Part shown: positions 315 to 63,855 of the stretch, piece after piece
How positions within the stretch are numbered: position 1 is the stretch's first letter
Layout: every line of letters begins with the position of its first letter
Assembly (NCBI GenBank): GCA_963971405.1
Contig: OZ020492.1
Span: 744,001-808,000 of the forward strand
Reading direction: 5' to 3'
Length of the DNA stretch: 64,000 nucleotides
Origin: Psococerastis gibbosa
Lineage: Eukaryota > Arthropoda > Insecta > Psocodea > Psocidae
Translations under genes and position numbers: made by a program
The notes under the pieces: model-generated
Told to the model about the DNA's origin: nothing
Database searches by the model: none
The model's input: only the letters and a program-made list of their open reading frames with translations

Positions 315-338
315 AATGATCCATTTGAATATGACTCT
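315..338 (+). CDS. Micro-exon m0 (8 codons)
   Basis: Acceptor TTATTTCAG and donor GTAAGTATC flank 24 bases reading NDPFEYDS in phase 0/0. It lies upstream of the first exon pair and shows that micro-exons also precede that module. Its very short length makes it less certain on its own than in the context of the series. Confidence 0.7.
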
Positions 339-3300
339 GTAAGTATCTTCGTGTATTATTGCATTAAATGTTGTGCCATGACATCAAACAGTTTTAGGTA
401 TTTATGTATGGATATATAGTATATAGTATATATATATATATAGTATATATAGATATATCTTAATATCACTTCTCGATACGTCATAGCTTTCCCATTTCTA
501 TTATATCCGGAAAAGGGAATCGAGAATAATCCGTACAGTGCGGGGCTCGAACACGCGCTCTATGAAGAACCAGTAGAATCCGGGCTGATGGGCCGTGGTC
601 GAAATGAAAGTGAACTTCCAAACGTTTCGTCAACATCTGCGGTCGAAATCTTCAGTGGCGCTGCGTAGACTTCGAAGGTTGCACCTTGCTGGCTCCGTAG
701 CGAGTACGGAGTCACTTTCATTTCGACCACGGCCCATTAGCCGGGATTCAACTGGTTCTTCATTCGACTTCGGCCGTGAAAGCCTTTGCAGTTACAAGCT
801 CTATGCCTTTATGTCTAAGCGGTCTAAGCCTGAATACTGGCGTTTGGATCCTCTCTCTTAATCACTCCTCTATTTGTGATGTTTTGGTCAGCAACATGCC
901 CGACCGCTACTTTTCCCCTACCAGTGAAGATAAACTGATCATTTGGTATGGGCAGAAATTTTACTTTTATGTCGGGTCTCGAAACTCCCCGTTCGGCTTC
1001 ATAGTCCAGTGCTCCACTAACTGGACTACATAAAGGCTATGTTGAAGAACACCACTTCGGTTATAAGAGAGCTTCTTTAGATGCTACAGGTAAAATTTAC
1101 CAAAAAAAGAAGTGAAAATCCCGGAATCGGACACACGGGGAGAGAATATATATATATATTGATTAAAAGCAGTTTAGGGGTGAACTAACATTGGTTAGTA
1201 GAGAACTTCCATGAGAACGGCTGTGTCATTACAAATCGAGTTCAAATATTAAAAATTTTACCGATGATTTATAAACTTCCAGAATATACTACATTGCAGT
1301 ACTGACTTAGAACTAACTTTGGTTATAGAGGTCACCTCCTCGTTATAACAAAAATATAGCAAAAACAGGACTTGGCGCAGGATTCGGACCCACAATCTAC
1401 GCCTATCAGCGGCGTAGCCAGAATATTTTATGGGGGGGGGGGGTGTCCAGTTTTCACGCAGCATCAATACATAAAGTTTGCCCGCTTACGATAGGTTTTA
1501 CGAATGGGGTGGGGTTTCTTTTGGCGCTCCCCCCCCCCCCCCCGTATTTTCGTAAAATAGTAGAAAAAGAGGAAAGCCGTTTTCATGGACGTACGCATCT
1601 TCAAATCAGGGGCATGATCTTTATTACCCCACCCGAGGAGTCGGGGCCCGGAAGGGGGGGGGGCGGGGGTCTCCCCCAGGGAAAGTTTTTGAAAAAAATA
1701 GGCCTGAACTGGAGTTTTACATTTTGATGTATATGTGTTTTGTACCATAGTCTAATAATGTTTAGGTTTTACAGCCGAAGAATAGTAGACCTACTGCAAG
1801 AATGAGGGGCACGGGGGTCTCCCCCGGGGGAATTATTTTGAAGAAGAATAGGCCCAAAATAATGGAATTTATGCACTTTCAAAGCAGTTATGTTTATATT
1901 TTACAAGTGAAGAATATTACAGTTAACAAGAGGGGCCCGGGAACTACTCCGGGGAATGTTTTTTAAAAGATGGGCCTGAAATAGTTTGTCGGCGAAAAAA
2001 GTTTGAATTTGTAGACGATGACTTTATCAACAAAACTGGAAACAAAGGGACCGGGGTCTCCCCGGGCAATTTTTTAAAATAAATATCTGAAAAATTTGCT
2101 GTTTTGCTAAATTTGGGGGGGGGGGGTCCGGAGCCAGCTGACCCCCCCCCCCCTTGGCTACACCACTAACGCCTATCCGGGGCATCGTTTTAACTGCTGT
2201 TTTTTATATCCTCTAATTTCGGTTCCAGAATTTAATTGGAGGTCCAAGAATCGAAGCAAAACCTGCTCTACCTGACAATGATATACCTCGCCTGACAAGA
2301 TCTGTAGAGGTTGCTGAACCTATAAATGATGTAGTCTACAGGGCGGGTTTCTCAAATTTGAAGCAACCATACTTACCAGGAACATCGTTCTATCAGCCAG
2401 ATACCTACCTGATGAATAAACAAATTGACTCAATTGGCCAAGCAGTGTCGAGGGTCCATCGTGAAAGTAGCCTGCAGTCAATGGAGCAATTTTTAAAATT
2501 TATCTATCCAGCTGCTCGTTCGTTGCCTGTTCCAAGTTCTGGAAAAGCTTTGTCGTAAGTGAATGAACTTAATCTGAAAGATTGGCTTTTTAAGGTGCGA
2601 TACCGTTTTTTGTACAAAATTTTACCTATGAGGTATCAATAAAATTGCAGATCTGTAATTGAGGACATAGTACGTAGATGAAATATTCTTCTGCGTTTTG
2701 ATGTTTATTATGTGGCCGTCACTAACATCGATTGGCCACAGTTGTGGCACACCGTCCATTGTTGGGCATCCACGCTATGCGTATTTTTTACAGGTTACGC
2801 CCCCCCCCCCCCCAACCTGAGCTTGACATATACCCACGTATAGCAGGACAACAAGTAAGGGGCCGTCTATTATTCACGTGAGGTTCGAAAGGGGGCTGGG
2901 GGTTTGGCAAAATTCACGAAATATAACAAAGCGGTGGGGGGAGGGGGCTATAGTAAAATATCACGTGCATTTATTTTTTCGTCAAATGCATGATCGCATG
3001 ATTACACCTTCCTTCAATATTGTGTGTATGCCAGAAAAAAACAACCTGCAACCTTTCTGTCTGGATATTTTTATCATTTTCCACAATAGAATAAAATTAG
3101 ATTATACTTTATACCTGTATTTAAAAATAATATTATACAAATTTTAAGATTCTTTAATCTTTGTGGGTACTAAAAAATACGTGATTTTGGGTGGTCTTAA
3201 ACCACCCCACCTATCACCAAGGGGGAGAGGGGGTTAAAATTTTTTTAAAAAAACATCACGTGATTAATGGACACCGCAACCGACAGCGTCAGATTCTTAG

Positions 3301-6300
3301 GAATGCTCGTTGACAAGGTCTTAAACTGGAGCAAACACGTCACGAGGCCGAGTTATTAAAAAAAAATATTAGTGGCCTCCTTGTAGTCAGGCGCCTTAGC
3401 TCTGTGTGTCCTCCAGAGGTTACTCTCCAGGCCTACTACTCGCTTTTAATTAGCAATGTAAACTACGGTTAGGCACCACCGTAGGGAACATGGACGCTGT
3501 ACTCAGGCTGCAAAAGAGAGGAGTCCGCAACATGCTAAAACTGGGACCTCGTGTCAGTCTTTACATATTTAGATGCATTTTACAAATCTTAAAGCCTGAG
3601 GTGTTGGGAAAATTTAAACGAAATGGGGACACCTACTCTTACAACACGAGGCAACGGGGAGACCTTGTAAGGCCAGCACCACGCACAGCCAAGTGTGAGC
3701 GACTGGATCCTATACTACAAGGTTTCGCCTACCTTAGAAAACTCCCGAATGAACTGAGAAATGCAACTAACTTCCCTAAATTGCTTAGAGACCATCTCTT
3801 AGAGAAAGCTGTCTTCACTGTCACTGAGGCACTAGCACAATGACAATGACAGAACTACCTGATTTTGACGATTTTACTTTATACTTTCTTGTCGATTACT
3901 TGTTGTTTACTTGATTGTATAATTAACAGAAATATATTTATTTATTTATATATTTATTTACAATGCAAACCAATATGAAGAAGAATACTCCTTCTAAATA
4001 CCATTTTCTCAATATGGGTGATACATTCGATATTTTCTGAGAAATCTTGACACCTTCCTGGTTTTTACCTAAAGTCCAGTGGCGGCTCGTCCATAAGGGC
4101 ACTGGGGCTACAGCCCTCCCATAATTTTACAGGCAAACAAAGCAATTTCCTTTTAATAATAATAATAATCATGAAATAATAATATACTATTCTGAAGAAA
4201 AATGCAACTGCTACAATTTGGCTATGCTATGTGCGTGCTCTGGGCAACTTGGGGCAATTTTCAATTTAGCCCCGGGTCGCCATGGCAACCGAGTCAGGCA
4301 AAAGTTAAGAAGATCGTTCGCACCATTGAAAAGGTGTACACAACTTTTCTCTTATGGACCTTGCAATGCAATTCATGCCATATGCATTTATACATGGGCA
4401 GCGGGGCAGCGCCCCAAAAATGACTTTAAATGTTTCGTATTAATAATATCGTTGAATATTGGTATTTTTTTAAAATCATAATTATAAGAGTTATTTTTGA
4501 GAAGAGTTTCACTATTTTGTCATGACTGATGATTATTATAAAATTTTTCAAAGAAGAATTTTTGACTAGGGAAGTCAGGTTCTGCCCAACGGTCAGGCAG
4601 GGTAATGTAAACAAATATTACAAAAATGTAAAGAGCGAGTGATAGACTTGTTTGCCACATCGAAATGCCGAAGAATCTATTTGTTATTCAAGTAGTGGTA
4701 AGTTATATGCTATTACTTTATTACAATTCGTTGCCCCACCATTTTGATACACCACGAGCCGCCACTGCTAAAGTCATTTATTGAACAAAACCCATAGCTT
4801 AAGAGGAATTATTGACGAAGAATACCTTAACGTATGTACATGCAATAGTTCTACATTTTCTTTGGGGAGGATGGGGACCTGTCTGGAAATAAATTCTGGA
4901 CGCGTGCTTGTACCCCCATCTCCTGTATTCTTTTGATAATTTCACTGACCCCCCAGACCCGGACCTCCTTTTCTTCCCAACTTTGATATTATCTTGTACC
5001 CTTTAAATGTATTTCATTTGATGTAAATTATAAATATATTATAATTTAGCCTGTGGAATTGGCTTATTTTTAAAAGAACAAAATATTGAAACCAAATCGA
5101 ATAACTCAGCGAAATTAAATAATTGCGAAAATGACAACGTCATTTAGAGTTTCAATAACTAATTTTTACAACAAGAGCCGAGCTTCAAGCTCAGTCTCGT
5201 AGTACTAATTAAATTGTCTCTCAACTTAGGATTCTTCTTCTTGAATGAATGAATGAATATATTTTAGTACGATACAATGAGACTATATACAATATAACAA
5301 CAATTTATAAAAATCACGCCACTGGGCAAATGCCCAAGTGTGGCCTACATCCGTTAACACAACGAAATAATCAGTAAAAGTTTGCTAGCTAGGCTACAAT
5401 AAAATAGGTATACTCATGTTTAATTTTGTTTTTCGGACGTATAGTAGCATTGTATACAACTGTATATTGTTATAAATCGACTTTACAAAGTATCAAATGT
5501 CAAAAACATCACGCTCTTTAACGGCTTTAACATAATTAGATATTTCCTTTTTTATGATATATGGACTTCCAGAACTTCGGCATATCAATGGAAAGGCATT
5601 AAAATGTTTTACACCAATGAATAACGCTGATCTCATGAACAGTTTAGAATTGGGATGTGGGACCTTCAGTGGCTCCCTGCTTAAATATCTGGTGCTATGA
5701 TGGTGCCTAACATTGGAAAGGGAGCAGCGCGTCTTCTTCTTCAGCCAACGCCCGTCCCTGACTGGTAGGCCGTGCCGCGTAATAATAGAGCTGGGCCAAT
5801 CCCTCCTGTGTCTCAGTTCGGTTTTCTACCTCAACTTCGGATTTGGACATATTATCTTTGGCATGGGGCCTTGCCTATGCCCCCGCTGCGCTGAAAATAA
5901 TCTTGGTTCCGGTGCTGGTGCCAAAATGTTTCCTTGGAGGGGGCAAACATGATTTTTTATGATTGCAGAAAGGAGTCTCAAATGTTGCATGAAAAGCCTG
6001 GATATAATATACAGGGCATGTCATACTACCAAATTCTGGAACCGGAACTGGAAAATCTTGTAGAAATGCTTGGAAGTATGAGCTTATCTTTCATTGATTC
6101 ACTTAAGGAAGCCTTTAAGATGTATGGAAGTGAATACAGAACTAAGGTAAGGGCCATGTATTTAAGCCTGGATTAAATAAGAAGACACTGTAGTAATGTC
6201 AGGGTATACAAGTCAAAACAATGCTTGGGAAAGCAAAGTCTATGAAGAAAAATTATTTTTTAGTAATTTTTCATTAAATTTGAATTTTATTTTTTTGCCC

Positions 6301-9300
6301 CTAGAACCAAACTATCAAGTGGTGTCTGGGATCTAAAAACGTGTAAATCCATTAAGTCTCAAAATCGGAAATTTCACCCATCACAAAGCTTTCCTTATAC
6401 TAACGCATTACTACTAGTAGCTAGTAGAAAAGCAAAAAGAAATCCTATGAACCGGATGCAAAGGGGAATGGATTGTGGCATTGTTTTCTTCTCGAGTTGT
6501 AATCTAGGGATTGGTTTGCAGCGAACGTTGTATTCTTCTCCTCCGCACCCTAGGTCCTTCATGACATCCTCTAGGTACTCCTTCCTCTGTCTCTTCTGTC
6601 GTAGCATTGTATTGCCTATAAATGGCGATATAATGTTTTTATGATGATACCCTAATTGGCAGACCCGATGCCCCAAGGCCCACTATCAGTATTGTAACAT
6701 ACATGCTCCAAACGCTTTGCGGAACCCAACTTCCGTTGTTTTTAACCAGAAAAATCGTAATTTGTAAACGATTTCCAGCCATAACCTTTAAACAACTGCG
6801 CACTCATATTTTTCATTTTCATTATAGTTATTATAGTCCAGTTCCTAGAGTCTAGGACCTAGACTAAGAAATGGAAGGTATAATTTTCCGATCAAAATGT
6901 AGAGGATCACGTCTTCTTCTACTCTATCACATCTCATTTCATCTCATATTATATGAGATATTTAGCTTTGTGCGGAAATAAGATAGGATGGGGTGTACCA
7001 TTTGCTCTTATATATCGTATCATGACTTTATTATATAGTATACTGTTTCTTGTAGATCCAAGAAATATTTGCTGGAGCCAACTCGATTAACTCATCGACG
7101 ATTGAAAAAACAAAAATTCCAGCCATGCAGATATTTTCTGAGCTAACAGAAGAACCCTCGCCTTTCTTACTAAAAACAAAAACATCATCGCAAAGTAATT
7201 ACGACCTATGGAATAAACAATTGGATTTAATTAAACAAGCTCTTTCGAGAATTAATTCGGAAAGTAAACTATCTGTGCAGCATTTATTTGAAGAAAATCC
7301 CACTCCTTTTTCTCGCCCTGGAGGTGTTCTGCTGATATCAACAATTGGAAATGCTTCGCTGTAAGTATCCCCCCCCCCTTTTATTGTAAATGCTACACTC
7401 GAACGCCGCTGGCATGAGGGGGCATTATTGAGAAATTACACGAATTGCTATTTTCTTATCTCAACAACAGTTCAATATTGCTGCAATGTAAAGAACCGGT
7501 CCGAGTTTACTCGAACATGCTTTCCAATTTATCAACATTAGTAGATCTTCTTCTTCTTCATCTTCAGCCAACGCCCGTCCTTGGCTGGTAGGCCATTTGA
7601 CGCACATTAGTAGATAGAGAATATGAGTAATTTCATGGTAAATAATTAAATTCTAGAAAGGTCAGACCAACACATTAATTACCACACAGCAATAATTGCG
7701 GGGCACACAATGCATTTAAGCGCGAATTTTCTAACATTTTTTCAAAAAATAATTTTTGTGCAAAGCCAAAAATTTTTTGGGAAAGCATCCAATGCTGTTT
7801 CGTTACTCAATTTAACACCTAAAACATACCTGAAGGTAGAAATCATCGATAGAAAGGTTTCGCAGAAAAATTATTTTTTAATAATTTTTCATTAAAATGT
7901 ACATATTTTTATTTTTTACCCCCCGAAGCAAACTATCAAGGGGCAAGCGACCCCCCGCATTTTATCAACATTAATAACAACTACAATATATGAGAATTTA
8001 AAAGAAATCGTTTGAGTCGTTTTCGGGAAATAATTTTTTTAGACGTTTTTTTGGAGTTTTTTGAAAATAAAACCCCCCCAAATTGAGTTAACCCCAAATA
8101 AAAAAACTTCAAAACTTACAGCAGTATTTTTATGATTTTTATCTGTTGATTGGTAGTAGAGGTAATGACTTTTGTAGTTGTATAATACATTGTCAAATAG
8201 ATGTACGATATACTGCTTATAATTATAATTGTACAATAGTTATGTATCACACATGTAAATTATGATAAGCATAGTTAAGTAAGTTAAGTTAATTTGCATA
8301 TTATTGGACATTGTCTGTTTGCAAATAAACGATTATTTATTTATTTATTTATTTAAAATCAGAACCTAATGCGAGAGGGGGGGGGTGTGCTATAGCCCTT
8401 GTAGCCCCCCCCCCCCCCCCCCCCCCCGTAGCTCCGTGCCTGCTTATTACATTACATTTCGTCACAAATAATGAAAAACCGATTTCTTTAAATGCTTTCA
8501 TGTTTCCATTTGTTTCCAATGTAGGCTACCACTGATACATTTTATTTATTAAGAGAACATGCTACGTAGAAAATTCCCAAAATGTGATGTTCTTATTGCC
8601 TCTTTATTTTTTAATTAATGTTAAGCAAGCTATTAAAGGTTCGGCTCTTGTAAGTTGTAGAAGACTACTTCATGCATCATATAATAGGGAATGTTAAATT
8701 TTGGTAGCTTAGTTGTCCACCTGATGTCACTGGAGGTGGGGTAAATTCTAGATAGGTCAGACCAACACATTACCACACAGCAATACTGGCAGGGCACGCA
8801 ATGCACTTGAGCGTGAATTTTCTATCATTTTTTCAAAAAAAACATTTTTTTGCACAAAACCAAATACTTTTCTGGGAAAGTAACCTGTCCAGTTTCGTTA
8901 CTCAATGTAACACCTAAAACATACCTGAAGTTAGAAATCATCGATGGAAAGGTTTCGCAGAAAAATTATTTTTTAGTCATTTTTCATTAAAATTTAGTTA
9001 TTTTTATTTTTTTGCCCCAGAAGCAAAGTATCAAGGGGCAAGCGACCCCCCGCATTTTGTCAACATTAATGACGACTACAATATATGTGAATTTAAAAGA
9101 AATCGTTAGAGCCGTTTTTTAGAACTAATATTTTCAGACGTTTTTTTTTTGAGTTTTTTGAGAATAAAACCCCCCAAATGAAGTTAGCCCCAAATAAAAA
9201 AAAATGGTTCCGAGGTATGAATTTTTTGAACCTAAATGCCGAATTTCACCAAAATCGACCGAGTAGTTTGCCCGGAAATCGACGCACAGACAGACAGACA

Positions 9301-12300
9301 AACAGACAGACAGGCAGACAGACAGACAGACAGAACGACAGACAGACAGACATTTCGTAAAAACCACTTTTTTGGGTTCCTAGGACCTTAAAACGTGTAA
9401 ATCCATTGAAATCTCGGAATCGAAAATTTCGACCGTCACAAAGCTTTCCTTATACTACGTATAAATTGGAAAGCAATGAACGTCTTGCCCTTGCTCGGCG
9501 TAGATAGGATGTTGTCCGCCATTAGTGTGTCTAACCTGATTGCGTAATATGTCCTGTTTATGTCAGCAAGGAGCTGAGCACTGCTACCACTTCTAGCGTG
9601 GCTGGGCTAATGCCATGCAGCTATAAAATAATTTAAAAATAAAAATAAAATAAACATATATTTGGGATGTTTTAGTGAAGTGTTCTAATCAGGGTGTTTG
9701 ATGGGCCTTTGGGACACCAACAAGCCATGACTATTAATAATAATAATAATCTCAATGTAATTGAATGAATTATCTACGATTTTGACTCCTAGCCATGCTT
9801 TGGAGGGCATGCAAAGCAAACCGGCATTCGTAGCATTCGTAGTAGTCCATGAGAGAAGACTCAAACGCGGCTAAGTTAATTCAGTTAATGAGAAATAAAA
9901 TCTTTATTTGCGTGGTACTGACCTAGCACAGCAATCATCGTTTATAATAAATTAGTTTAACATAAGTATACTTAGTTAATTATAATTAATTTTACTATAA
10001 GGTCAGTTTAGTTTAGTTTAGTTAGTAGTAGTTATAAGTTAGTATATCACGTAGTGTTAGTTTTTTTTTAAATTCACTAATTTCTATGTTTTAAGTTTCA
10101 ATAAATCAAGTGTCAAGCGCGGGCTTATCCGTTAGGGCTCTTACTATGAAAAATGTAATAATGTAATGTATTGAAGGAAATAAATAAATATTGTATTGTA
10201 TTGTAAGTATTCTGCGGTCATTTCATGCTAAGAAAATGCCCATGTAGGATGTACATATACTTTCCCATACATAATAAAATGTTGTTAGTAGACCCACCCT
10301 GATCGCAAATGGAATATGTGTACATGTCTTCCAAGAGAAATTGAGGAAGACCGTGCGTTTAGAAGTTGGAAGCCCCTTCTCATAAGTGACAGGTCAAGAA
10401 TTCCCTTTGGGAACAAGGTGGATCGTCTTACAATATCTCACTAAGGTGCCCATTCCACCGACCGGCTAGGGCTATTTACAAAAACAGTGACGTGGTAGCA
10501 GACATTCAAGATTTAGGCGGGGTTTCCCACGACCTCGCATTGCAGAATTGACGGAAATGTATATTTTCCTCTATGCCATAGTTAAGATTGATCAATGATC
10601 ATACAGTAAAATCACAAACAAACAAACTAAAATTAAAAAATGGCGTCATGGGATATGTTAAGTACAAACATTTTAATAGATTTCTATAAAAAGAAAAATT
10701 CTAATTTCCGTCAATGTCATTTGCATTCTGCAATGCGAGGTCGATGGAAACGCCTCCTAAGTCTTGAATGTCTGCTACCACGTCACCGTTTTTGTAAATA
10801 GCCCTAGCCGGTCGGTGGAATGGGCGCCTTAGTATGGAGAAAAGCGATTTCCCTTTTTACACTATTTGCAGGCAACACACTTTTCATAACTTGAAATGAA
10901 CGCAAAATGCGTAAACTGGCTATAGATAAATAAAAGTCAGGACATGTAGATTAGTCGTAAAGACTCTGACTTTCACCCGCAAGGTTGTTGGTTCGAGTCC
11001 CAAACATGCTACATTTTCTGGCCATGCAGGCGGTCCCGGGCCTTCCTAGTTGAGTGTAAGAGAGGGCTTTATAGCCCTAACTCCACTAGGTTGGCTTAGT
11101 AATAAAAAACAAAAAGTCATTATTTATTTATAAATTATAAAACATATGTTTTATGCTTACAGACAGGAGTCCCCGAGTAAAGAATTGGTGGCTGACATGG
11201 ATAACACTGTTTTGGAAACTATGTTATTGGAGCAGCAACCGGACAAAGCACAGGCGGGTCGATCATTAATTAATGTGTGCACTTCATTTATTGATTCCAT
11301 AAAGAAACTCTTCAAGACGCTTGGAAACGATGGATCCTGGAAGGTAAAAAAAAAGATAGAAAATTGTCCCTAATTTTCATGCTGGCAAAGTTTGGGCATT
11401 TTGGCCCACTCTTACATTAACCCATAAGACGTTACGGGTTAAGAGAAACACAAACACATTTTAAAGTCTATGTTTAAATAGCCTATTAATTTAAATTAAA
11501 ATCAGCAATATATTTACTATGCAGCAGTGTAGAAAAGGAGTCCCTTTTTAGCCCCTCTTTGTTGCCTTATTGTAACATCGGTCATATTTGTAACATACAA
11601 GTAGGTTACACACAGACTGGATGTTGTATGATAAGTTGCAGCCATTCAAATTGATGTACATTTCTGGCTTTGCGAAATCAAAAATCAAATGTTGTTCACC
11701 CTTTTCAGTTCACAATGCTCGAAAAAAAACCTATACAAATTTCATAATAGATTTCAGTGTTAAGGTTTCAATATACATATTAGCTGTTGAAAAAGCCAAG
11801 GTGTATGCTGTCGTTGAACCGAATGGAAAAATGTACTGTTGGCGAGGTTCTGAATAGGCTAGGAAGCCGTAGGAAACTGCGACTCGTTAATAAAATGTTC
11901 ATTGCCCTTTTATTCTCAGACCTTATATATTCCAAAAAAAAAAGATTAATCGCATGCAAACAATTTAATGAATGAGCTATTGTATATTCGAAGGTCTTCG
12001 CATACAAAATTCTTATCGAAGCAGTTATACGCAATTCGGTTTAACCAAGGACAGGAAGGTTTTTCATTTTTTTTTAAATATGCTGTTGTTGTTTCTGTTG
12101 TTTCTAACGCCTGCTTTCAGCATTTCTGCTTTAAGCAACCCTGTCAGCCTGGCGGGTGGAGTGAGTCTGTTAACTTGAGGCACTCTAAGGGCAGACTCTT
12201 TCACTTCGGGGAAAGGGGAGTTGACTAACAGGGTGGACCTCCTGATTGTAGTGGGTTCCGAACCACTTGGGGAACATGGTATAAAGTCACACGATTAAAT

Positions 12301-13624
12301 CGGAGGTGACCAGGACTCGACTTATACTGCCTAAGCGCGTTATCATGTCCCACCATGTTCCCCTGCCAACGCTGTGCACACTACCAAGTTGCCGCAGTTT
12401 GAAACATGCTCTGCTGTAATGGAATCAACCGTTGCCCGTTGGCCGTTGGCCGTTTCAAATATTGTTTTGGGGCCTCATTGATTTTCGGGAGAATATGGCT
12501 GATAGCCTGATACAATGAAACGTAGCCTTTGATCTCCTGACTTGTGCATTTACTTATGGGCAGCAGGATGTGTCTCGATAGTTTGATGGTTACTGTCTAC
12601 TGTATAAGAGTATTTAACGTAACTTCGTAAAACAAAATTATACCATTAAGGAATTTAAATTGCACTCAATATTCTGTATTGCATTTTATTGGCCTTTTTG
12701 CTTGCAAATAAATATTTATTTATTTATTTTATTTTATGGCCTAGGAGAAATGCTGCACATGCCCCTCCCCCGTAATGGGAAAATTAAATACGAAATTGAC
12801 TGATGTGAGTTGTTATAATGCACGAATGCATAATTTGCCTGATCTAATAGATGTAAGCAGTCGCGGTATTCCGTTTGATTGGTAGAATTCAACGTCGTCT
12901 CGGGTGGTGATCAGGTCTTGCTTACCCCCCCCCCCCCCTCCCCCACACGAAAATAACTTATATATATTGTTTGAATTATTGACTTAACCGAGGAATTCGA
13001 ATGTTCAACTTCAATTTTCCAAATTCTATACTCAATATTCGGCCATGTCTAATGGCCTCAATGACTTATGCACATGTTAGAGATTGCCTAAAACTGTAAA
13101 TATGAGCATGTTGGCGATTGAGTGAGACGGTTGTTGCAAAATAGCGGACTTGAGCTGGGAAAAGTGCAACCTAAAAAGGCCAAAACCTTCCTTAAAGAAA
13201 AGCTATTGTAGAACAAGCAGTAGTAATAATACCTCAGCAGGTTTCAAGGCTGAAGCACAAAATTAGGCTAAAATGTCCCCCAAAAAAACCAAGAAACAAT
13301 TAGCACTGATCTGTTTCGAGCATATCGTACGTGGGACCCACATTGGAAGGTTTTAAATTACCAGGCCCTACATGAACAAGAGGTCATGCCACAGACCTGA
13401 ATATAGAAATGAATGGGATCATTCAAAAAAGAAAAAGTTGAAAAGAAGAGAGCAGTCATAAACCGTAGCGCTATAGGGGGACGACATGTCGCCCCGAGGG
13501 GAATTTCGGAAGAATATCAACTTACCGTATTTTCCTGCTGTACTAAATTTATCTCGTTATAGGGGTTTAGGGGTTTATTCTGAATATAATAATAAAATAT
13601 ATAATAATAAGAAATGTATTGTTG

Positions 13625-13657
<33 letters not shown>

Positions 13658-19600: not shown

Positions 19601-22600
19601 TCAGCAGTCGCCTCTATAGGCTAGTACCCGTGTTGAGTTACGGCACGTCTCCGATCGCATGGTGTGTAGAGAGCTTCACACAAGTGCAAGCCCGCTACCA
19701 CCTTGCCATCGAAGTCGATAAGTCTACACAGATATTGACCCGTAAACATGTCTGATGGTGTACCGTTATTGTAACTGTACGAATTGAGAAATAGGAAAGC
19801 ATGTACGGGTTTACTCTAACCATTCATGACTTTTTGTTCCATTTCCGGATGGAATAAGCATAATAGGCTTAGCTAGACTAAATGACTTTGAACAGAATGA
19901 CATGTCATAGGGAATAAAACGCTGCAGATTACGGATTACGGCTCTTGTTCCTGACGGTATCAATGCCCACGCGCTCAGTCGCTGCCAACCCTCCCCCCCC
20001 CCCCATTATTTGCATCCCTCATTCACTTTCAAAAGGGGAGAGCGTGTCTCTTTCCATCAGCCCCTCCACAGTCCCCATTATTAGCTTGCCTAATGTTTTC
20101 CAGAAAAAATATCTACGTTGCTCTCGCCTCTTTTAATGCTTCGTAATATCATTTGGTAAGGCTTTTTTATTGACAAAGAGGCGCACCTATAGCGACAAAT
20201 TGGTCCGTGCCCTGCTTACGAGCTAAATAATGTTTCCGATTTATAGATTTTGTTAGCCCATGGGCACAGGTCCTCAATGTCAACCTACACCGGATACAAT
20301 CAGCAATGGAGAAGCCGTGGCTTATGAGGCTTACACGCAGTATTCCGGTGCATGAATATATTATATAGTATTACCCTATATATATCATATGCTCCCAGTG
20401 CTGGAGGTAGGTACCGGCTGGGGGAAAAAATTATTAACTAATAAGAAAAATCCAGTAATATTTTTTGATTTTTTGTAGAATGATGCACCTACTGGCGGCT
20501 ACCTACAAGCCCACAATGAATATCTACCAATTCTTCTAACACCTAACAATTACTACCTCCTACCTTCTGAGCTGAAAGGTTCAACTCTAAATGAAGGCAT
20601 TGAAAATCCTTCTGAAGGTTATAATATGGCACCCTTAACGCAAGCGGCTGTAAAACTGCCTCCGACGTAAGTACATTAGAACTTCAATTCTCTGGACATT
20701 TTGAGTAGTGGTACAGACTCCAACTTTCACCCGAAAAGTGTCGAGTCTCACACTTACCACAGGTGGTCCCTGGTCTTCGGTAATGTAAGAGAGGGCTTTA
20801 TAGCCCTAACTCCGCTAGGTTGGCTTTGTCAATATAAGTTTGTTTATTTATATGTGAAAACACAGATAGAACTTGTGATAACTGAGGGTGCTGACAGGAA
20901 AAATCTGCTGTGGAAACATACGAAATAAAATGCACAATTCAAATATCATAAAAAGTAACGATACTTCATTTTTTGATGTCCATCCAGCCGCTTAAGAAAC
21001 TTTTTGGTTTGCATGAACGAATAAAAAATACGCGGGAATGACATAACAATGAGATAGTAAAACATAATTGTACCTTGAAGGAATTTAAATTGTACTATAT
21101 TTTCTGTGTAAGTTTTGCATTTTGTAAATAAATAAATAAATAAACAAATAAATATCGGCTTTTTTGTTCTATTACTAAGCCAAACAAGCGGGACTTATTA
21201 TTATTATTATTATTGGACTTTTTATTGGATATGTTTGCAAATAAATTTATTTTATTTATATTTATTTTATTTTACGCGCCATTTTGCTTCTTGGTAACCT
21301 TAGTAGTAGTAGTATGGTTTGACACAGTCCCAGGCCACGGTGTGGGCCCATAGGACTCCAGTGGACCTCCTGATTATAGTGGATTCCGAACCACTTGGGA
21401 AACACAGTGAAGTCACACGATTAGTTCGGAGGTGACCAGGACAAGTCCTACCATGTTTCCCTACCGGCACTGTGCACAAGACCAATTTATCTGCAGCTTT
21501 GAACCTGCTCTGGTCCGCTGGATTCAACTTGGTATGGCGGCCGGCTGACCTTAGTAGTCTGAATATTTTAAGATGTGTTATGTTGTAGATCTGGAGAAAA
21601 GGTAACATATAAAAGTACTGCCCCTCTCCATGACTCAAAAGAGGCAACGAAGACTGAAAGTTGGTTTGAAAGCATCGCTGCGAATTTAAATGTGAGTGAA
21701 TATCTTGTAATCTCTCTTTGACAGTTGACGCTTTCATATATTTATAATGGAAGCTCGAGAAATTTTCTACTTTCGCGTCATAAGAGTTGGTTGCTCTTTA
21801 CGAATATCAACCAAAGTTTATTTAAGAAGTCGACTTTGAAAAGGGTAACTGTAATTAATTAGAGAATAAAATTGCGGGCCTTTTCGTTAATCTCGGTATG
21901 GTGAGGATTTGTTTGTATTGTAATACAATATTAGCCTTCCTAGTTCTTACGTACACATGGATATGATTGAAAGGCTAGGGGAAAGCCTCGGAATTGGTGC
22001 TAACTCGCTGTTTTTTTTTTCTTTTTTTTTTTCTACAAAAAGGTTCCTCATTGCATTCTGTAACTAATCGGGAATCAGCAGAACGTGACTTAATATAAAA
22101 AAAAATAACGTGCTTCATTTTATTCATGGGGGGTTCGAACCAACCCCCCCCCCCCCCCCCCCGAAATGGAATGGCTTGATACTAGATAGAATCGGATTTT
22201 GTGAGGAAAAACAAAAACTACCAGGTAATATCCTTGATTTCACTCGTACGACATTTTAGGTGCATATAAACAAGTTGATGGACATAAAATTGCCGATCGA
22301 CTTATGTATGTACACAAATTGTCAACAGCCATCATTCAAACTGGAATGAAGTCACACTCAAAGACGCTTAAAAAGTTCATAAGTTTTTTTGGTCATATTT
22401 TATTCAAACTTGGCATATCGATTCACTATGCCGACAGCCATTGACAGAAAACGTAGGAAGCGTGGCAGCGCACGAGCCAAGTTTCCCGATATAACATGAC
22501 ATTAACTTTGACTATATTTCACTTTTATTTACTTTTACGTATACAATTGTCATCCGCCATCATTCAAACTGTAAAGAAGTCACACTCAAAGACGCTTAAA

Positions 22601-43600: not shown

Positions 43601-46600
43601 TTCTAATCCATTACCGAACCTACTTGGCAACTCCTGATCCTTTCAGGTTCACCTTTGTAATACATTTTTAGCCCTCAAATTTTATTCCAGACAAGCTGAA
43701 GTTTTTGCCCTTTCCAAGTCGCAATCGTCTGTCTATGGGTCATTTCTTTTACTCCGACAGCATTAAAAATTTAAAATAGCTGGGGTATCTTCTAATCCAT
43801 TACCGAACCTACTTGGCTACTCCTGACCCTTTCTTGTAGCAGTGTAGCATCATACAGTTTTAAATTTTGATAATCTCTGCAGCCCAAATATAAATTCTTT
43901 TATAATTTTTAACTATGTACTGTAGGTGCTGAAGGAAAACTAATGTACCGTATTAATAATTTCCATTATTTCAAATTTCAGGATTCATTCCCAGTCATTG
44001 AGCTTCCTGGTTTGGTTTCTCCAAAAGGATACATGAAAGTCATTCCGGTTAGTAGCCTGATTTAGGAGGAAATAGGCACACCAAAAACTGGCAATTTTTA
44101 TTTTTACATAATTTATTTCTATTTAGTCTGTTCAAGTTATAGAAGTCTACTAGATATACTCAGTGGTTCTCAAACGTTTTCTTTCGCGGACCCCCAAAAT
44201 TTGTAAAATGATCGGGCGGACTCCTATGAGCTCTAGAAACCAAAAGCCGAAGGTAAATAGAGACAGTTTGGTGTCTAACGCTAACCTAACTCAAAAAGAC
44301 TGCAATAAAATGTTTAATAATCTTTAATGAGACAAATGACACTGAGCTTTTCCTTCTATTATTTTTGAAATATTGGGTTCCATTACTTCCATTTGAGAAA
44401 CGTTCAACCTGAAACCTTTTGTGAAGTCAAGGGGATTGCGATATTTATTTTTCATGTAACACATCGCAGAAAATGCCTTTTCACAAATATATGTTGTGGG
44501 AAACAGGGACGGATCCTTGGGGGGGGGGGCGACCGCCCCCCGAGAGAAAAAGTTTTATACTAGATATAATGGACTTTTGAAGGAAATTAAGAAAAATTAT
44601 TACTCAAGTAAAAGAAACGCGATATTTTTCCGGCCATCGCCCCCCCCCCCCAAAAAAAACTTTTTCTGAAACCGTCCCTAGTGGGAAACGGTAATAAAAA
44701 AGTCAATGCTCACTTGGCTATGTCAGCATAACCCGAACGAGCAATAATCCAGAAATCAAACAAAATTCCATCAGCCTGCGGACCCCAGGGGGTCCGCGGA
44801 CCACACTTTCAGAACCTCTATTATAGGTAATATATATATATTTTTTTTAATTTTTGTGTTTTAGTTATTTCATGAAAGTTACTGGGGACTGGAGACTTAT
44901 TTCAATTCTAATTCGTTCTGATAAACTACCTATAGTTGTAGTTATTAAATGCATTTTTTTTTCTAGTTTCAGTGTCTTTTAATTAGATAGTAGCAGCAGC
45001 AGCAATATGATAAGATAATAAATCAGTCATAAACGCTTTATTGTTCAACGAAAAACAATAAGAATAGACTACGGTACTGGCAGTACCGTACTGCTTGTTT
45101 TTGATACGCTAATATTTAATTGCATCTGAATTATAATTGCATTGAATTAAATTTTATACACTGTAAAGGTAAACCTTGCAATACATAGCTGATCAAATTA
45201 TGATTTATATCTAACCATCATTAGTTTATGTTTTTTTTTTTTCAAAACTATTTTAGAGCAATGACATCGTTGATCTTCCATCAGTAACAAATGTAAGTAA
45301 GCACCGTTGCAGTCACGGAATATAAATTTTATCAATAAATTATAGATTGTCATCTACAGATATGAATAAACTCAAAATACAAATAAGAATTGTTACCGTT
45401 ATTATTGATACATATTGTATTAACATTATATATAGCGTTTTATATTAAAATAAGCGCATACTTGGCTATCGATAAATAAAAAATAATCGGTACGAGCGAA
45501 CCCGTATAGGCTTTCCTATTTACCTATTAGTATAGATACTGCAATAGATAATTATGAATATACTGTAGTTTGATGAATCAGTAGAATCCGGGATGATAGG
45601 CCGTGGTCGTTCTGAAATTGTACTTCCAGGATTCTACTGATTCATCATGTAACTCCGGCCGTGAAATTCTTTGTAAATATACTGTACTTTGTTGGCGAAT
45701 AATTATCCTATGGTTAAATTTTGAATATCATGAGTAGAGGAAGAAGAACGCAATGATCCACAGTAAAATACTTTAATAGTGACCGGTTTCGGATAAAATC
45801 CATCATCAGATCCAAAATCCATTATCCGAGACCGGTCACCATTAAAGTATTCTACTGTGGATCATTGCGTTCTTCTTCCTCTACTCATGATGTTCTCCAA
45901 GTTCCACGAAGTCACCAAGGAAACTCTCACAAGGATAAATTTTGAATGCCTAGATTTCCCCTATCCTAAATAAACGGACAGACCAATAGAATACTTCGCA
46001 ATGATAATTATGTCATGGAATGCAATGCAAGCAAAAAGGGAAAGCAACCTGTTCTGTTTTGTTACTCTACTTAGGCGCCCATTCCACCGACCGGCTAGGG
46101 CTATTTACAAAAACGGTGACGTGGTAGCAGACATTCAAGACTTAGGTGTCGTTTCCACCGACCTCGCATTGCAGACTGCAAATAACATTGACGGAAATTA
46201 GAATTTTTCTTTTTATTGAAATATATTAAAATGTTTGTATTTAACATATCCCATGACGCCATTTTTGCTTTCCAATTTATACGTAGTATAAGGAAAGCTT
46301 TGTGATGGTCGAAATTTTCGATTCCGAGATTTCAACGGATTTACACGTTTTGAGGTCCCAGGAACCCAAAAAAGTGGTTTTTACAAAATGTCTGTCTGTC
46401 GGTCTGTCTGTTCGTCGATTTCCGGGCAAACTACTCGGTGGATTTGAGTGAAATTTGGCATGTAGGTTCACAAAAATCATACCTCGGGACAATTTTTTTT
46501 TTTGGGGCTAACTCAATTTGGGGGGGTTTTGTTTTCAAAAAACTCCAAAAAAACGTCTAAAAAAATTATTTCTCAAAAACGGCTCCAACGATTTCTTTTA

Positions 46601-49600
46601 AATTCTCGTAGATTGTAGTCGTTATTAATGTTGACAAAATGCGGTGGGTCGCTTGCCCCTTGATAGTTTGCTTCTGGGGGTAAAAAAATAAAAATAACTA
46701 AATTTTAATGAAAAAATGACTAAAAAATGCGAAACCTTTCTATCGATGATTTCTACCTTCAAGCATGTTTTAGGTATTAAATTGAGTAACGAAACCGGAT
46801 AGGTTGCTTTCCCAAAAAAATATTTGGTTTTGCCCAAAAAATTATTTTTTGAAAAAAATGATAGAAAATTCGCGCTCAAATGCATTGCATGCCCTGCCAT
46901 TATTGCTGTGTGGTAATTAATGTGTTTGTTTGACCTATCGAGAATTTACCTCACTTCCAGTGACGTCAGGTGGACAACCGCCCCCCCCCCCCCGAGATAT
47001 CGGAAATTTAACCATAGGAAAAATATTTGCCATAAAATTACTAATTTTCTCTATCTAATAATTTTGGTAAATTGGAAAGCATGTTCGAGTGAACTCGGAC
47101 CGGTTCTTTAATTTTAGTTTGTTTGTTTGTGATTTTACTCTATGATCATTGATCAATTTTAACTATGGCATAGAGGAAAGTAAACATTTCCGTCAATTCT
47201 GCAATGCGAGGTCGGTGGAAACCCCGCCTAAGTCTTGAATGTCTGCTACCACGTCACCGGTTTTGTAAATAGCCCTAGCCGGTCGGTGGAATGGGCGCCT
47301 AAGCACCTACGTATGTGTGACCTTGAAGCAGGCACGTAGCCAGGGAGGGGGCTTTGGGGGCGGAAGCCCCCTTGCGGTCGGAGACGTGTCGTAACTCGAC
47401 ACAATTACCTAATAGGCTACTTAGTGAGGCGATTGAAGAGGTTAACCGGAGACATTCATGAAATTGTTTGTACGCGATTAACCTTTTATTAAAAAAAAAA
47501 AGTTTTTTGAATATATAGGCCTATTTATTATGGATCTGATTTTTTAATTAAAGTAATTTTTACATTCAATATTCTGTGTTTGGAAGATATCACACTTTTT
47601 TATCCTTGCATTGGTCAGTTTGATGTTTCACCTGTAATTTTTTTTTCTCCCTCTAAAAACACTAAAACTGTGTGTTTTTGCATGTAAATTCTTAAAAATT
47701 TCCGGGGGTGGGGGACTCGCTGTTTTACTGGGGGTATTCCATACCCCCCGCCCCGACCCCCTGGTAGTTAGCCCCCCCCCCCCCCGAAATAAAATCCTGG
47801 CTACGTGCTTGCCTTGGAGTCAGGATCCAGGCCACAGTTTGGGTTCACAAATAATAAATAAATTTATTTATAAATATATTTCTGTTAAATTATACAATCA
47901 ACTATCAAGTAATCGATAAGGAAGTATAAAGTAAAATAGTCAACATTACAACATTATATCGTCAAAATCAGTTTTTATAGGTAGTTCTGTCATTGTGCTA
48001 GGTCCCCCAGTTCTAGTTGAATTCTATAGCTTCTGCGAATCTCGCTATGACAGCAGGTTGAACTACTTACTGGAAACCCCCGCTCCAAGTCCAGGGTGCC
48101 AAATCAGCAAGAATGTGCCACTTTCTGTCTCCATCTACTTAGCAGCTAACCTGAAGTTAGAAAGCAACGATACTCGATAGTACTAGATAAAAATACCTAG
48201 ATAATAATTAGGTATACGTGATGAATCAGTAGAATCCGAGATAGTATGGCGATGGTGGATCTGAGGGCGTACTTCCAAACTTACTGCTGTTAAGTCTCCG
48301 AGATAGAATCTTAGAAGTCTACGCAGTTCCACTTAAGATGTCGACCGCAGATCTTGAATAGAAGTAATATTGGGAAGTACGCTTTCAGATCCCGGATTCT
48401 ACTGCGTGTAGCGGCTTATACTTTATAAGCTAACCTGTGTCTAATCTCAAATATTAGGCATTATATAGTAAGTTATAATACCTTAATCATCCGATTTGTA
48501 GACTGACAAACTCAAACCCTAATAATACAAGTGGATCGTGAACATTAAGCTTATTAACTGTGCTATCGATATTTGATCCCTACCTTAGGGGTTAGATCAG
48601 CAATGTACAAACACTGAATTCCTAGAATTTAACTTTGAGGTGGACTCAAGCAAGTAATGGAGCCTCAAGTGGCAATTCAAATTACTGTTTACCGTACACT
48701 CATTCCCTGCTTCTCCTCCGGCTGAATTGTGCTGACTAGGTGTTCTGTGAAGTGTGTATATCGCCTGGAAGAGAATCGCCCCTAAATAGTTCATAAAGTC
48801 ATCAATGTTAAAATAAAATTAATTTTATAGGTTTAAGAGGCAATCTCCTTAAGTCATTACATCCCGAATAGTCAAAGGAATATCAAGAAAGAACTGAATC
48901 CTGTTGACCTGTAATAATGGTTTAAATTATTATTATTAATTAAAATTTTACCTTGCAGTGCCACTGCTCTAAGATTTCTTGATAAGCTTGAGCGTGATAA
49001 TTATATGCATAACAATTTTTTTTTCTATATATTGCACCTTGTCCGGGGTTACTGGACAACGAAAAAAGGGATGTGATTTTTTTTTCTTTATAAAAAGGTT
49101 AATCGCATACAAACAATTTAATGCATGTATCAAACTGAACTCTTCAGTCGCCTCTGCAGGTTAGTACCCTGTAGAGTTACGACACGTCTCCGATCGCATG
49201 GCGTGTAGAGAATCGCACAAGTACAAGCACGCTACCACCTTGCCATCGAAGTTGAGAAAGAAAAAAAAATTATATTATATTATATTATATTATATTATAT
49301 TATATTATATTATATTATATTATATTATATTATATTATATTATATTATATTATATTATATTATATTATATTATATTATATTATATTATATTATTCGTGAA
49401 CCTACAATCGATGTCTTACCGCGACATCGTGTATACCACTACACAACATCGGACGGATTTAAATGTCCTAAATGTAGTTATCCATATATTCTGTACTAAT
49501 TTTTGTGAGATATATATGGAAATGGGTAAAAAAAATCTATTGCGTTACTTTCCAGGGAATTCTTTCCTTCCCGGTGGCGTTTTTGAAGATATTATTCCCG

Positions 49601-52600
49601 AAAATGTCGTACCCAGCACCGGACTCTGTAAGTATCCTGCAAACAATACATGTATTTATTTTTTGTTAACACGTGGAAATTTACAGTGTATCCACTCTTT
49701 GAATGAAGAGAAATATGTCAGCTTGACCATTTTAAATAGTAATTCATATTGAAGAGTAGCCAACGACATGAATCATGAAAGGTCCAAATAACTTTAGCAA
49801 TTGTTGTGGAGAATTATTTTACTAATTGTCCTATTTATTATTATTAAGTGGCTTTTTCAATTTTTTTTGGGAGATTTGAAAAATATAATTTTGTTTAATT
49901 TTAAATAGTAATGGGTTTCCATTACCCAAATATTATTAATTTCATATTTTTATCATTCCTACATTTCAGGAAATGATCCGAGTCCCTGTATCAGACATTT
50001 TACCACTGCCACTAAAAATAATCCATGAGGTAAGCTCCTATGGTATAGTATGATATAAAATAATTTTTGGCATCTATTCTTCTTCGTCTGTGTGAGGAAA
50101 GAGAAAGAGATAGAGATAGAGATAGAGATAGAGATAGAGATAGAGATAGAGATAGAGATAGAGATAGAGATAGAGATAGAGATAGAGATAGAGATAGAGA
50201 TAGAGATAGAGATAGAGATAGATATAGAGATAGAGATAGAGATAGAGATAGAGATAGAGATAGAGTTATCAGGACAAGTCTGATGCTCATGGGATAAACT
50301 GCAACTCTTTTAATTCTCTTATATGGCGTAATACTACGTAGGTGCTAAGGGGCTTAATAAAGACTTCCTTGAATACTGTGGTCCACAAACATATATCAGC
50401 TGAGATATTGGAAATTTGAAGTAAAATACAGTAAGTCTTGGCACTGAACTATAAAATCCAACCGATACCAGTCCTAAACAGTTAATCAAATATTAACATG
50501 TAATTGTAAGTACAAATCATCTTAGAATTTGACGATTTTCCTGTCGCAGCTATGGTGGTCCATGGAAAATCATAAAATAATCTAGTGGTTCACGGACAAA
50601 AAAGTTTGGAAACCCCTACACTAAGGTGTGCTGTTTATGTCCTTAAAATACAATAAAAAAAGATTGTATAGACCTCACTAAATTATTCCCAGCAATTAAA
50701 GAAATTTTTAAATGATCAGACTTAAATTGTAAATAACATTTCCTATATGGGCATCCGCAGCATTCTTTCCTTGAGGTAGGCAGGCTGAATCGGAAATTGA
50801 TTTTCCAATCTCCCCGACACTCAGCACGAAGGGGAGGGAAGGTGGGTTGAGCTGGCGACCCCCCCCCCCCCCCCGCCGCTCGCTGCATTGACTTTGTGAC
50901 TTTGACATCACTGTATTTTATCATCAATTTATTACTCAAATTGTTTTTTTTTTTCGCCACCCTTTTAAAATCTTCAGCGCTCTGACCATTCTGTAAATAC
51001 GCCACTGGACTCAATGCATTTTTAAAACAGTAAAGTTTAGTCTTTACTAGCCAAGACTTATTAAAAAAATCACTCCAAACTACTCCCTGGTCCTTAAACG
51101 TTGAGTAAAGGACATGTCGGGTAGTAGAAAGACTCTGACTTTCATCCGAAAGGCTGTTGGTTCGTGTCCCACACTTGCTACATTTTCTGCCCATGCTTCG
51201 GAGGGCAGAAAGTTACACTGGGAAGAAAGGTCGCCGGAGATATGAGAAGCTTTGGGGCTCTCAACAGAGAACGCACAGAACAGGAGTGTTTGGAAACGCT
51301 GCTGTCGTGCCGCTGACCCTCCATGAGGATACTGCGCATTAAAAGTAAAATTAGCTTCGGAGGGTGTGTTAGGCCGGCGTTAGTTGAGGGTTGGAGAGTC
51401 TTAACTCCGCTAGGTTGGCTTAGTAGTAGAATGCCTGGACACAGTCCCAGGCCACGGTGTGGGCCCATAGGGCAGTGGACCTCCTGATTATAGTGGATTC
51501 CGAACCACTTGGGAAACACAGTGAAGTCACACGATTAGTTCGGAGGTGACCAGGACAAGTCCTACCATGTTTCCCTACCGGCACTGTGCACACGACCAAG
51601 TTATCTGCATCTTTGAACCTGCTCTGGTCCGCTGGATTCAACATGGTATGGCGGCCGGCCCGCTAGGTTGGCTTAGTAACAGAACTGAAAGTACTAAAGT
51701 ATTAGGCTAAGCATAAAAATGTTTTCTGCAGTTTAATGTTCATTTTTACGCTACTTTCCATTTTCAATAATATGTTTCCTACATATAGGCTCATTAGCGC
51801 ATTCAGGCTTTTTTGTTGTTTTTCACCTGCACCCCGCAGAAGCTGTTAGGTGAAAAAACAGAAATTTAAATCATGTTGTGTTTTCCATGTTTAGAATACC
51901 CGGGACCGACTTACAATGAATGAAAAGGTAAAGATTGATAGCCTTCAATTCAAGTGTCACCTGGTAGATGAATGTAAGCTCTTGAAAGGGGCTTCCATTA
52001 CATCAAAAGCAAGCTATTAGTATAAACCGAAGGGGTCAGCGTTCAAACTTATATCAAAGCCTAGCGTGCGCCTCATTAAACAGTTAAATAATCCTTTACC
52101 TGTTGCAGGCGTTTCTAGCGAAAAGGCCCTCATTATGGATAATAGCTGTGGTGTCTTCGCTTTTCACAATTTACTTAATTAGAATGCAAGCGCTTCTCGG
52201 CCTGAGACTAAACGAATTCAATACATCTTCGTGAAAGACCGTGTCTTTCAGCTTCTCCTTGTGTATGCTAAACATGCACAGCCTATTTTTGGACATAATT
52301 ACTCATAAACATGTTTTGATTCACCCCAAAGTTCTAACAGACCTTCCCACTGACCCTATCGTAGGAGTTAGTGCAACGAACCTCACTACGCCGCCCTTAA
52401 GGTTAATCGCACTCACACAATTTAATGAATGTATCCGATTAACCTCTTCAATCGCCTGACTAAGTAACTTAAAGGTGCTTGTGTCGAGTTACGTCTCCAA
52501 CCGCAAGGTACACAAGTACAAGTACGCTACCACCCTGCCACCGTAGTCGCATGATGTTCAAGTCTGGGGTGCCAGATCACATGGCACTCAGCGAGAATGT

Positions 52601-63855: not shown

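Follow-up and report, generated by a model that had tools for sequence, protein, structure and literature searches.

A coding locus rich in predicted phase-0 micro-exons extends beyond a 64-kb genomic window

Results

A chain of mostly phase-0 exons crosses the window

The 64,000-nucleotide stretch of DNA analyzed here (the window) is best read as the central part of an insect protein-coding locus that may reach ~143 kb, with ~45 predicted symmetric phase-0 micro-exons and six larger exons, a reading to which we assign a probability of about 0.6. The sequence points to a coding locus that is real and unusual; it exceeds in size, and is less purely phase 0 than, what a preliminary description of this DNA had reported. 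The giant micro-exon architecture proposed there, with mostly symmetric phase-0 exons, was supported.

On the + strand, 32 exons placed by eye and with a script between 315 and 62525 together give a single open reading frame, 922 codons long plus a stop (Table 1). The model consists of 25 symmetric phase-0 exons, six larger exons (103–326 bp), and one weak stop exon; exons make up 4.5% of the model span, and the mean intron length is 1.9 kb. The 25 phase-0 exons (315–338 plus 24 between 24075 and 62306) are 24–105 bp long, their multiple-of-three length having been a selection criterion when they were chosen, and they agree in number and size with the single phase-0 exons read earlier (25, of 8 to 35 codons). 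The 24 micro-exons from 24075 to 62306 have a median length of 60 bp (range 24–105). In the scored scan described below, 23 of the 25 phase-0 exons reached at least 18, the exceptions being 51895–51927 and 54654–54713. In the chain scoring, 31 donors were used, of which nine fell below 6.5. Three further phase-0 open candidates scoring at least 18 lie outside the model (13658–13687, 27721–27732, and 56392–56460); the second, of 12 bp, is probably a chance occurrence.

Table 1. Predicted exons and the exon array in the window (phases are given as entry/exit; "open chain" marks exons that continue the open frame, and "scan" the score in the scored scan)
Feature	Position	Strand	Basis
Phase-0 micro-exon, 8 codons (NDPFEYDS)	315..338	+	strong acceptor, GTAAGT donor, scan ≥ 18
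Larger exon, phase 0/2, 108 codons, module A first half	2229..2554	+	open frame into 5969; resembles 7056–7360
Larger exon, phase 2/0, module A second half	5969..6146	+	resembles 11163–11343
Larger exon, phase 0/2, module B first half	7056..7360	+	open chain, module similarity
Larger exon, phase 2/0, module B second half	11163..11343	+	open chain, module similarity
Larger exon, phase 0/2	20479..20666	+	open chain
Exon, phase 2/0	21589..21691	+	open chain
Phase-0 micro-exon VPIIKWSIQPAEF	24075..24113	+	open chain, scan ≥ 18
Phase-0 micro-exon, 29 codons	26843..26929	+	open chain, scan ≥ 18
Phase-0 micro-exon, 28 codons	27255..27338	+	open chain, scan ≥ 18
Phase-0 micro-exon, 24 codons	29489..29560	+	open chain, scan ≥ 18
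Phase-0 micro-exon, 18 codons	31116..31169	+	open chain, scan ≥ 18
Phase-0 micro-exon, 23 codons	32983..33051	+	open chain, scan ≥ 18
Phase-0 micro-exon, 17 codons	34730..34780	+	open chain, scan ≥ 18
Phase-0 micro-exon, 12 codons	35973..36008	+	open chain, scan ≥ 18
Phase-0 micro-exon, 22 codons	37682..37747	+	open chain, scan ≥ 18
Phase-0 micro-exon, 16 codons, weak donor gtacct	39703..39750	+	open chain, scan ≥ 18
Array, 8 tandem units with 105-bp phase-0 exon, weak donor GTATCT	42402..43783	+	repeat structure
Phase-0 micro-exon, 22 codons, donor gttagt	43982..44047	+	open chain, scan ≥ 18
Phase-0 micro-exon, 12 codons	45257..45292	+	open chain, scan ≥ 18
Phase-0 micro-exon, 24 codons, GILSFPVAFLKILFPKMSYPAPDS	49556..49627	+	open chain, scan ≥ 18
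Phase-0 micro-exon, 20 codons	49970..50029	+	open chain, scan ≥ 18
Phase-0 micro-exon, 11 codons, weak	51895..51927	+	open chain; not listed at score 18
Phase-0 micro-exon, 14 codons	52979..53020	+	open chain, scan ≥ 18
Phase-0 micro-exon, 22 codons	53243..53308	+	open chain, scan ≥ 18
Phase-0 micro-exon, 20 codons	54654..54713	+	weak acceptor 4.5, donor gtaata 3.6; not listed at score 18
Phase-0 micro-exon, 15 codons	54943..54987	+	open chain, scan ≥ 18
Phase-0 micro-exon, 10 codons	55919..55948	+	open chain, scan ≥ 18
Phase-0 micro-exon, 35 codons	60437..60541	+	open chain, scan ≥ 18
Phase-0 micro-exon, 12 codons	61073..61108	+	open chain, scan ≥ 18
Phase-0 micro-exon, 8 codons (IPLPFTLN)	61739..61762	+	open chain, scan ≥ 18
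Phase-0 micro-exon, 20 codons	62247..62306	+	open chain, scan ≥ 18
Possible terminal exon, 40 codons + TAA, weakly supported	62403..62525	+	in frame; acceptor score 1.2

The six larger exons (2229–21691) run through the phases 0-2, 2-0, 0-2, 2-0, 0-2, and 2-0, giving three phase-2 junctions. The preliminary description, which took the gene to be built almost wholly of phase-0 micro-exons, was right for most of the exons but had missed these three 0-2/2-0 pairs; nor does its statement that every cassette is skippable hold for them, as 0-2 and 2-0 exons are skippable only as pairs. The exon pairs 2229+5969 and 7056+11163 represent a duplicated two-exon module, the two copies being 34% identical over the aligned part and having their splice phases in common.

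The exon pattern exceeds chance expectation

The scored scan combined acceptor score, donor score, and amino-acid make-up, and collected non-overlapping phase-0 open candidates over 264 kb. Since its scores were trained on the window exons, the count in the window (22 candidates scoring at least 20) is inflated, and the flanks, on which nothing was trained, provide the fair test. At the same threshold, the 45 kb upstream contained 9 candidates and the 40 kb downstream 12, whereas a Markov simulation (30 runs of 64 kb each) yielded a mean of 0.13 and a maximum of 1. Farther out, there were no candidates in a further 55 kb upstream and one in a further 60 kb downstream. Over the whole 264 kb, the + strand had 44 phase-0 open candidates scoring at least 20, compared with 2 and 3 in the 3n+1 and 3n+2 length classes, and the minus strand had 1, 1, and 1 across the three classes. 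These counts bear out the earlier claim that the blocks are more than chance.

The trained splice scores alone gave a similar strand difference: over 224 kb, 37 of 56 pairs on the + strand were multiples of three, 32 of these 37 being open, versus 7 of 22 pairs, with 2 of 7 open, on the minus strand. A phase-consistent chain over 194 kb, again with scores trained on the window exons, had a score of 800 for the + strand, compared with 148 for the minus strand; the + chain contains some transposon-like and chance pieces.

Untrained rules were also applied. With a strict generic rule (lengths 12–119), a clear excess was absent from the window: 7 of 20 pairs were multiples of three and 6 of these 7 were open, against 4 of 7 pairs and 1 of 4 open on the minus strand of the window. 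A second untrained rule found 10 multiples of three among 20 pairs on the + strand of the window (8 of the 10 open in phase 0), 4 among 13 on its minus strand (3 of 4 open), 8 among 15 in the 50 kb upstream (4 of 8 open), and 10 among 14 in the 40 kb downstream (9 of 10 open). Far upstream, 1 of 5 pairs was a multiple of three (0 of 1 open), far downstream 6 of 12 were (1 of 6 open), and on the whole minus strand 14 of 50 were (8 of 14 open). In the window alone, the untrained rules show little or modest excess, weaker than that of the trained scores.

The absence of a clear excess under the strict rule is what would be expected if the micro-exons were chance AG..GT blocks, or the remains of an expired gene, with the larger exons belonging to a separate gene, and short blocks are fairly often open by chance, as the 8 open readings among those 14 minus-strand pairs illustrate. 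This explanation is nevertheless very improbable: it conflicts with the contrast between 44 scored candidates and the 1–3 of the control classes and with the counts in the untrained flanks, and an expired gene would have accumulated stops and frame shifts. Taken together, the sequence evidence makes it almost certain that the coding exons are real.

The exon pattern continues past both edges of the window

Candidate exons run past both window edges, to ~42 kb upstream and ~37 kb downstream, so the limits of 315 and 63855 given earlier do not hold on either side. In window coordinates, the good candidates reach from -42359 to 100795 (701,641 to 844,795 on C20, the contig of the window), a distance of ~143 kb. 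The scan found no candidate scoring at least 20 between -42116 and -25314; given this gap, the last two exons on the upstream side may lie outside the locus, and its upstream limit is soft. Nor did an exon ending at 63855 fit the pattern: of the 13 AG sites within 200 bases upstream, none opened a symmetric phase-0 open exon longer than 9 bp, and the 143-bp reading from 63713 to 63855, though open, ends in phase 2.

The window model is partial, and its first exon is not the true first exon. By eye, none of the 38 ATG readings listed as containing a hydrophobic segment and ending at a donor was convincing as a start or signal-peptide exon. A signal-peptide-like reading at 12080–12160 was rejected, as it lies inside a repeat recognized by eye elsewhere in the window.

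The flank exons are similar in character to those of the window, for example GDYVLPLMDLRIAFPNIELPGPID at 77061–77132. We consider it somewhat more probable that these exons form one gene than that they belong to a few neighbors. Two or more neighboring genes of the same kind, one ending at 62403–62525 and a tandem relative starting at ~64 kb, are a possible but less favored arrangement. It would fit the in-frame terminal ORF of 40 codons plus TAA, directly followed by ATAAATCA, and the resemblance between 49556–49627 (GILSFPVAFLKILFPKMSYPAPDS) and 77061–77132, as between tandem paralogues, although the score of this pair (40) is within the range of the best shuffled pairs (31–46). Against it, the acceptor of the stop exon scores 1.2, compared with 4.5–17.1 for the other exons, and the exon is missing from the ranking of acceptor-to-stop readings, in which it probably did not reach the cut of 0.5. 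Moreover, four readings with an ATG and a hydrophobic segment are listed at 64.3–65.9 kb, one of which (65155–65265) ends in phase 0, and none was convincing by eye; at the thresholds applied, genome searches disclosed no additional copy in other places.

Other features of the surroundings were noted. At about -84.2 kb on the minus strand, the reading ETPHLLAWVKLNGHPYWPAKVLYLNGHKKIFD looks like the PWWP domain of a ZMYND-type gene and may mark the upstream neighbor. Open stretches that by eye look like pieces of LINE reverse transcriptase occur at 3454–3666 and from about -89.4 to -87.5 kb. Homopolymer runs of at least 10 nucleotides in the 264 kb are more numerous for C (69) and G (71) than for A and T (37 each).

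Tandem exon copies form an array

The array of a further phase-0 exon that had been described earlier was confirmed at 42402–43783. Its unit comprises a 105-bp phase-0 exon and an intron of 76 or 79 bp and measures 181 bp, with one unit of 184. Six copies of the exon are identical and one differs from them by a single substitution, whereas copy eight is altered and has lost the frame. Because the donor GTATCT is weak, use of the array exon is uncertain. The repeat as such spans 42375–43833 with a period of about 181 bp and reflects either an amplification of the exon that took place very recently or an expansion introduced by the assembly. A second tandem array (53974–54621; period 189 bp, 3.4 copies) occupies the intron preceding 54654.

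When 53 exon peptides were compared with one another, 11 pairs, module pairs included, scored at least 30, against a mean of 3.6 after shuffling. As this similarity is only somewhat above that of shuffled peptides, a common origin of most micro-exons is unsupported.

The predicted protein is almost free of cysteine and had no significant match in Pfam, NCBIfam, or the PDB

The 24 micro-exons from 24075 onward encode 447 residues, of which 13.4% are Pro and 38% are Ile, Leu, Val, or Phe; the net surplus of basic residues is 27, and Cys is absent. The gene had been described as lacking cysteine, which is correct for these 447 residues but not for the joined protein of 922, which has one. Hydrophobic periodicity in the larger exons was helix-like (100 degrees, z 4.4), and that in the window micro-exons was strand-like (160–170 degrees, z 3.5); in the flanks, the strand-like signal was weak downstream (z 1.9 and 1.3; 16 exons) and absent upstream (-0.5 and 0.6; 8 exons). 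The AlphaFold2 model of the first larger exon together with its duplicate was of low confidence (mean pLDDT 59), with one better helix at residues 59–92 of the first larger exon (block pLDDT 74–81 over residues 61–90) and low values in the rest.

A Pfam search returned only a sub-threshold Talin_R4 match (E 0.14), and NCBIfam, queried with both larger-exon modules (A and B) as well as the 24 micro-exons, gave no match. The PDB search produced three chance rows (E 0.46–0.67) for the larger-exon part and none for the micro-exon part; Rfam and ARAGORN detected nothing in the window. In its own genome (409 Mb in 68 contigs), the window protein had 21 listed places with E-values of up to 1, all of them inside the window. 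The joined flank exons, searched with E-values of up to 10, had 14 places: 12 were those exons themselves and two were chance matches (E 3.7 and 9.2). These paralogue searches scored the best candidates only, and weak paralogues could escape them.

The architecture resembles that of other micro-exon genes but differs in exon phase from bicycle genes

The genome contains long TTAGG arrays, to which a 25-mer matched 13,701 times in forward and 7,614 times in reverse orientation (control 0 and 1), and all six listed matches to the odorant-receptor family 7tm_6 exceed the family cut-off (best E 2.8e-15). Both features are marks of insects, and the genome is accordingly that of an insect and not of a trematode. 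One odorant-receptor reading was without a PDB match. Bacterial rpoB, a marker for symbionts, gave seven matches on contigs C1, C3, and C19, all below the cut-off, and riboflavin synthase, a horizontally transferred gene of psyllids, gave none. Among the matches listed in a literature search, no phase-0 giant micro-exon gene of an insect was found.

Bicycle genes carry CYC motifs, number 476 in Hormaphis cornu, and start almost all of their internal exons in phase 2 (PMC9168663). The present locus is like them in having many very small internal exons of a single phase, that is, symmetric cassettes. In contrast to them, 27 of its 30 internal exons start in phase 0 and three in phase 2, its predicted protein has one Cys in 922 residues and no C.C, and no paralogue was found. 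The published bicycle gene-structure classifier, run with its published coefficients, gave a linear score of -145 against a cut-off of 0.72 (PMC9168663) for this model, which is partial, restricted to the window, and begins with an exon that is not the true first one. The earlier separation of this gene from bicycle genes is upheld by the phases, the missing CYC motif, and a classifier score far below the cut-off.

The megacycle gene of aphids is similar in scale. The Melanaphis sacchari megacycle is reported to have 118 exons over about 100 kb, to encode 2092 residues, and to have internal repeats and no obvious CYC motif; the gene appears to be a product of internal duplication. Such a gene was recovered from 11 of 12 aphid genomes, and the non-aphid species of that study all lacked it (PMC9168663). 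The two loci share the ~100-kb scale, with more than 100 micro-exons in megacycle, internal duplications, an insect host, and discovery by architecture. They differ in that megacycle was chosen with a classifier that rewards phase-2 exons and is reported from aphids alone, whereas the locus here is phase 0; the phase-2 definition itself derives from bicycle genes.

Could the locus still belong to the bicycle/megacycle lineage as a strongly diverged member? Its scale and internal repeats recall the Melanaphis sacchari gene, in which the CYC motif is likewise not obvious (PMC9168663). Nonetheless, the predominance of phase-0 over phase-2 starts, the classifier result, and the lack of a megacycle in the non-aphid species studied there (PMC9168663) make such membership highly unlikely. 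Because the phase, classifier, and CYC tests all came out negative, the locus has a plan similar to that of megacycle and bicycle genes, and membership in their lineage is unsupported.

Schistosome micro-exon genes (MEGs) are flatworm genes with 10–20 short exons each, mostly of 15 bp and up to 81 bp; the exons are mostly multiples of three between long introns, and Pro, Phe, and Leu are frequent in the products (PMC10526429). The present locus shares the short multiple-of-three exons, the long introns, and the frequency of these residues, its 25 exons of 24–105 bp having been chosen as multiples, and differs in its exon sizes (24–105 bp, median 60), its insect host, and its larger helical modules.

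Discussion

The predicted exon structure with its statistics, the phase bias, and the duplications are supported at the level of sequence. Together, they suggest that the locus is probably a lineage-specific giant micro-exon gene that grew by duplication of modules and exons and encodes a cysteine-poor, Pro/Ile/Leu-rich product. In the mechanism we propose, one pre-mRNA would be spliced to encode a long protein, the first part of which would consist of helix-forming modules and the micro-exon part of an extended, basic, Pro/Ile/Leu-rich, cysteine-free chain. Phase-0 cassettes would be optional without loss of frame, while the 0-2 and 2-0 exons would be used or skipped in pairs. Since nearly every exon keeps the frame, inclusion and skipping of cassettes could yield many isoforms; by analogy, we give even odds to such diversity being in use.

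As a first guess, the analogy with aphid megacycle and bicycle genes and schistosome MEGs suggests a secreted, fast-evolving product. A secreted salivary, glandular, or structural role is accordingly put forward with some reserve. A structural extracellular protein of silk, cuticle, or egg-shell matrix, with phase-0 cassettes like those of collagen or enamel-matrix genes, would be an alternative to a salivary or effector-type protein. Small phase-0 exons and Pro-rich composition are also typical of structural genes, and the high Pro (13.4%) and Ile/Leu/Val/Phe (38%) contents seen here are in keeping with such a protein, but there was no Pfam match to any such family and the peptides are, by eye, varied rather than simple repeats, so we regard this alternative as unlikely.

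More tentatively, the lineage-specific giant gene that we favor may represent a "mega" micro-exon gene that originated independently, in an insect not belonging to the bicycle lineage: a single-copy locus of ~143 kb in which phase-0 splicing would write very many cysteine-free, Pro/Ile/Leu-rich proteins and in which the eight-copy array would indicate that growth is ongoing.

Ordinary annotation and sequence searches readily overlook a gene that is split into dozens of very small exons. The locus is relevant to the question of why micro-exon genes keep one exon phase, and its recent eight-copy exon array is a place to watch such an architecture grow. If our reading is true, a phase-0 insect case that differs in structure from the phase-2 bicycle genes would point to repeated origins of this architecture.
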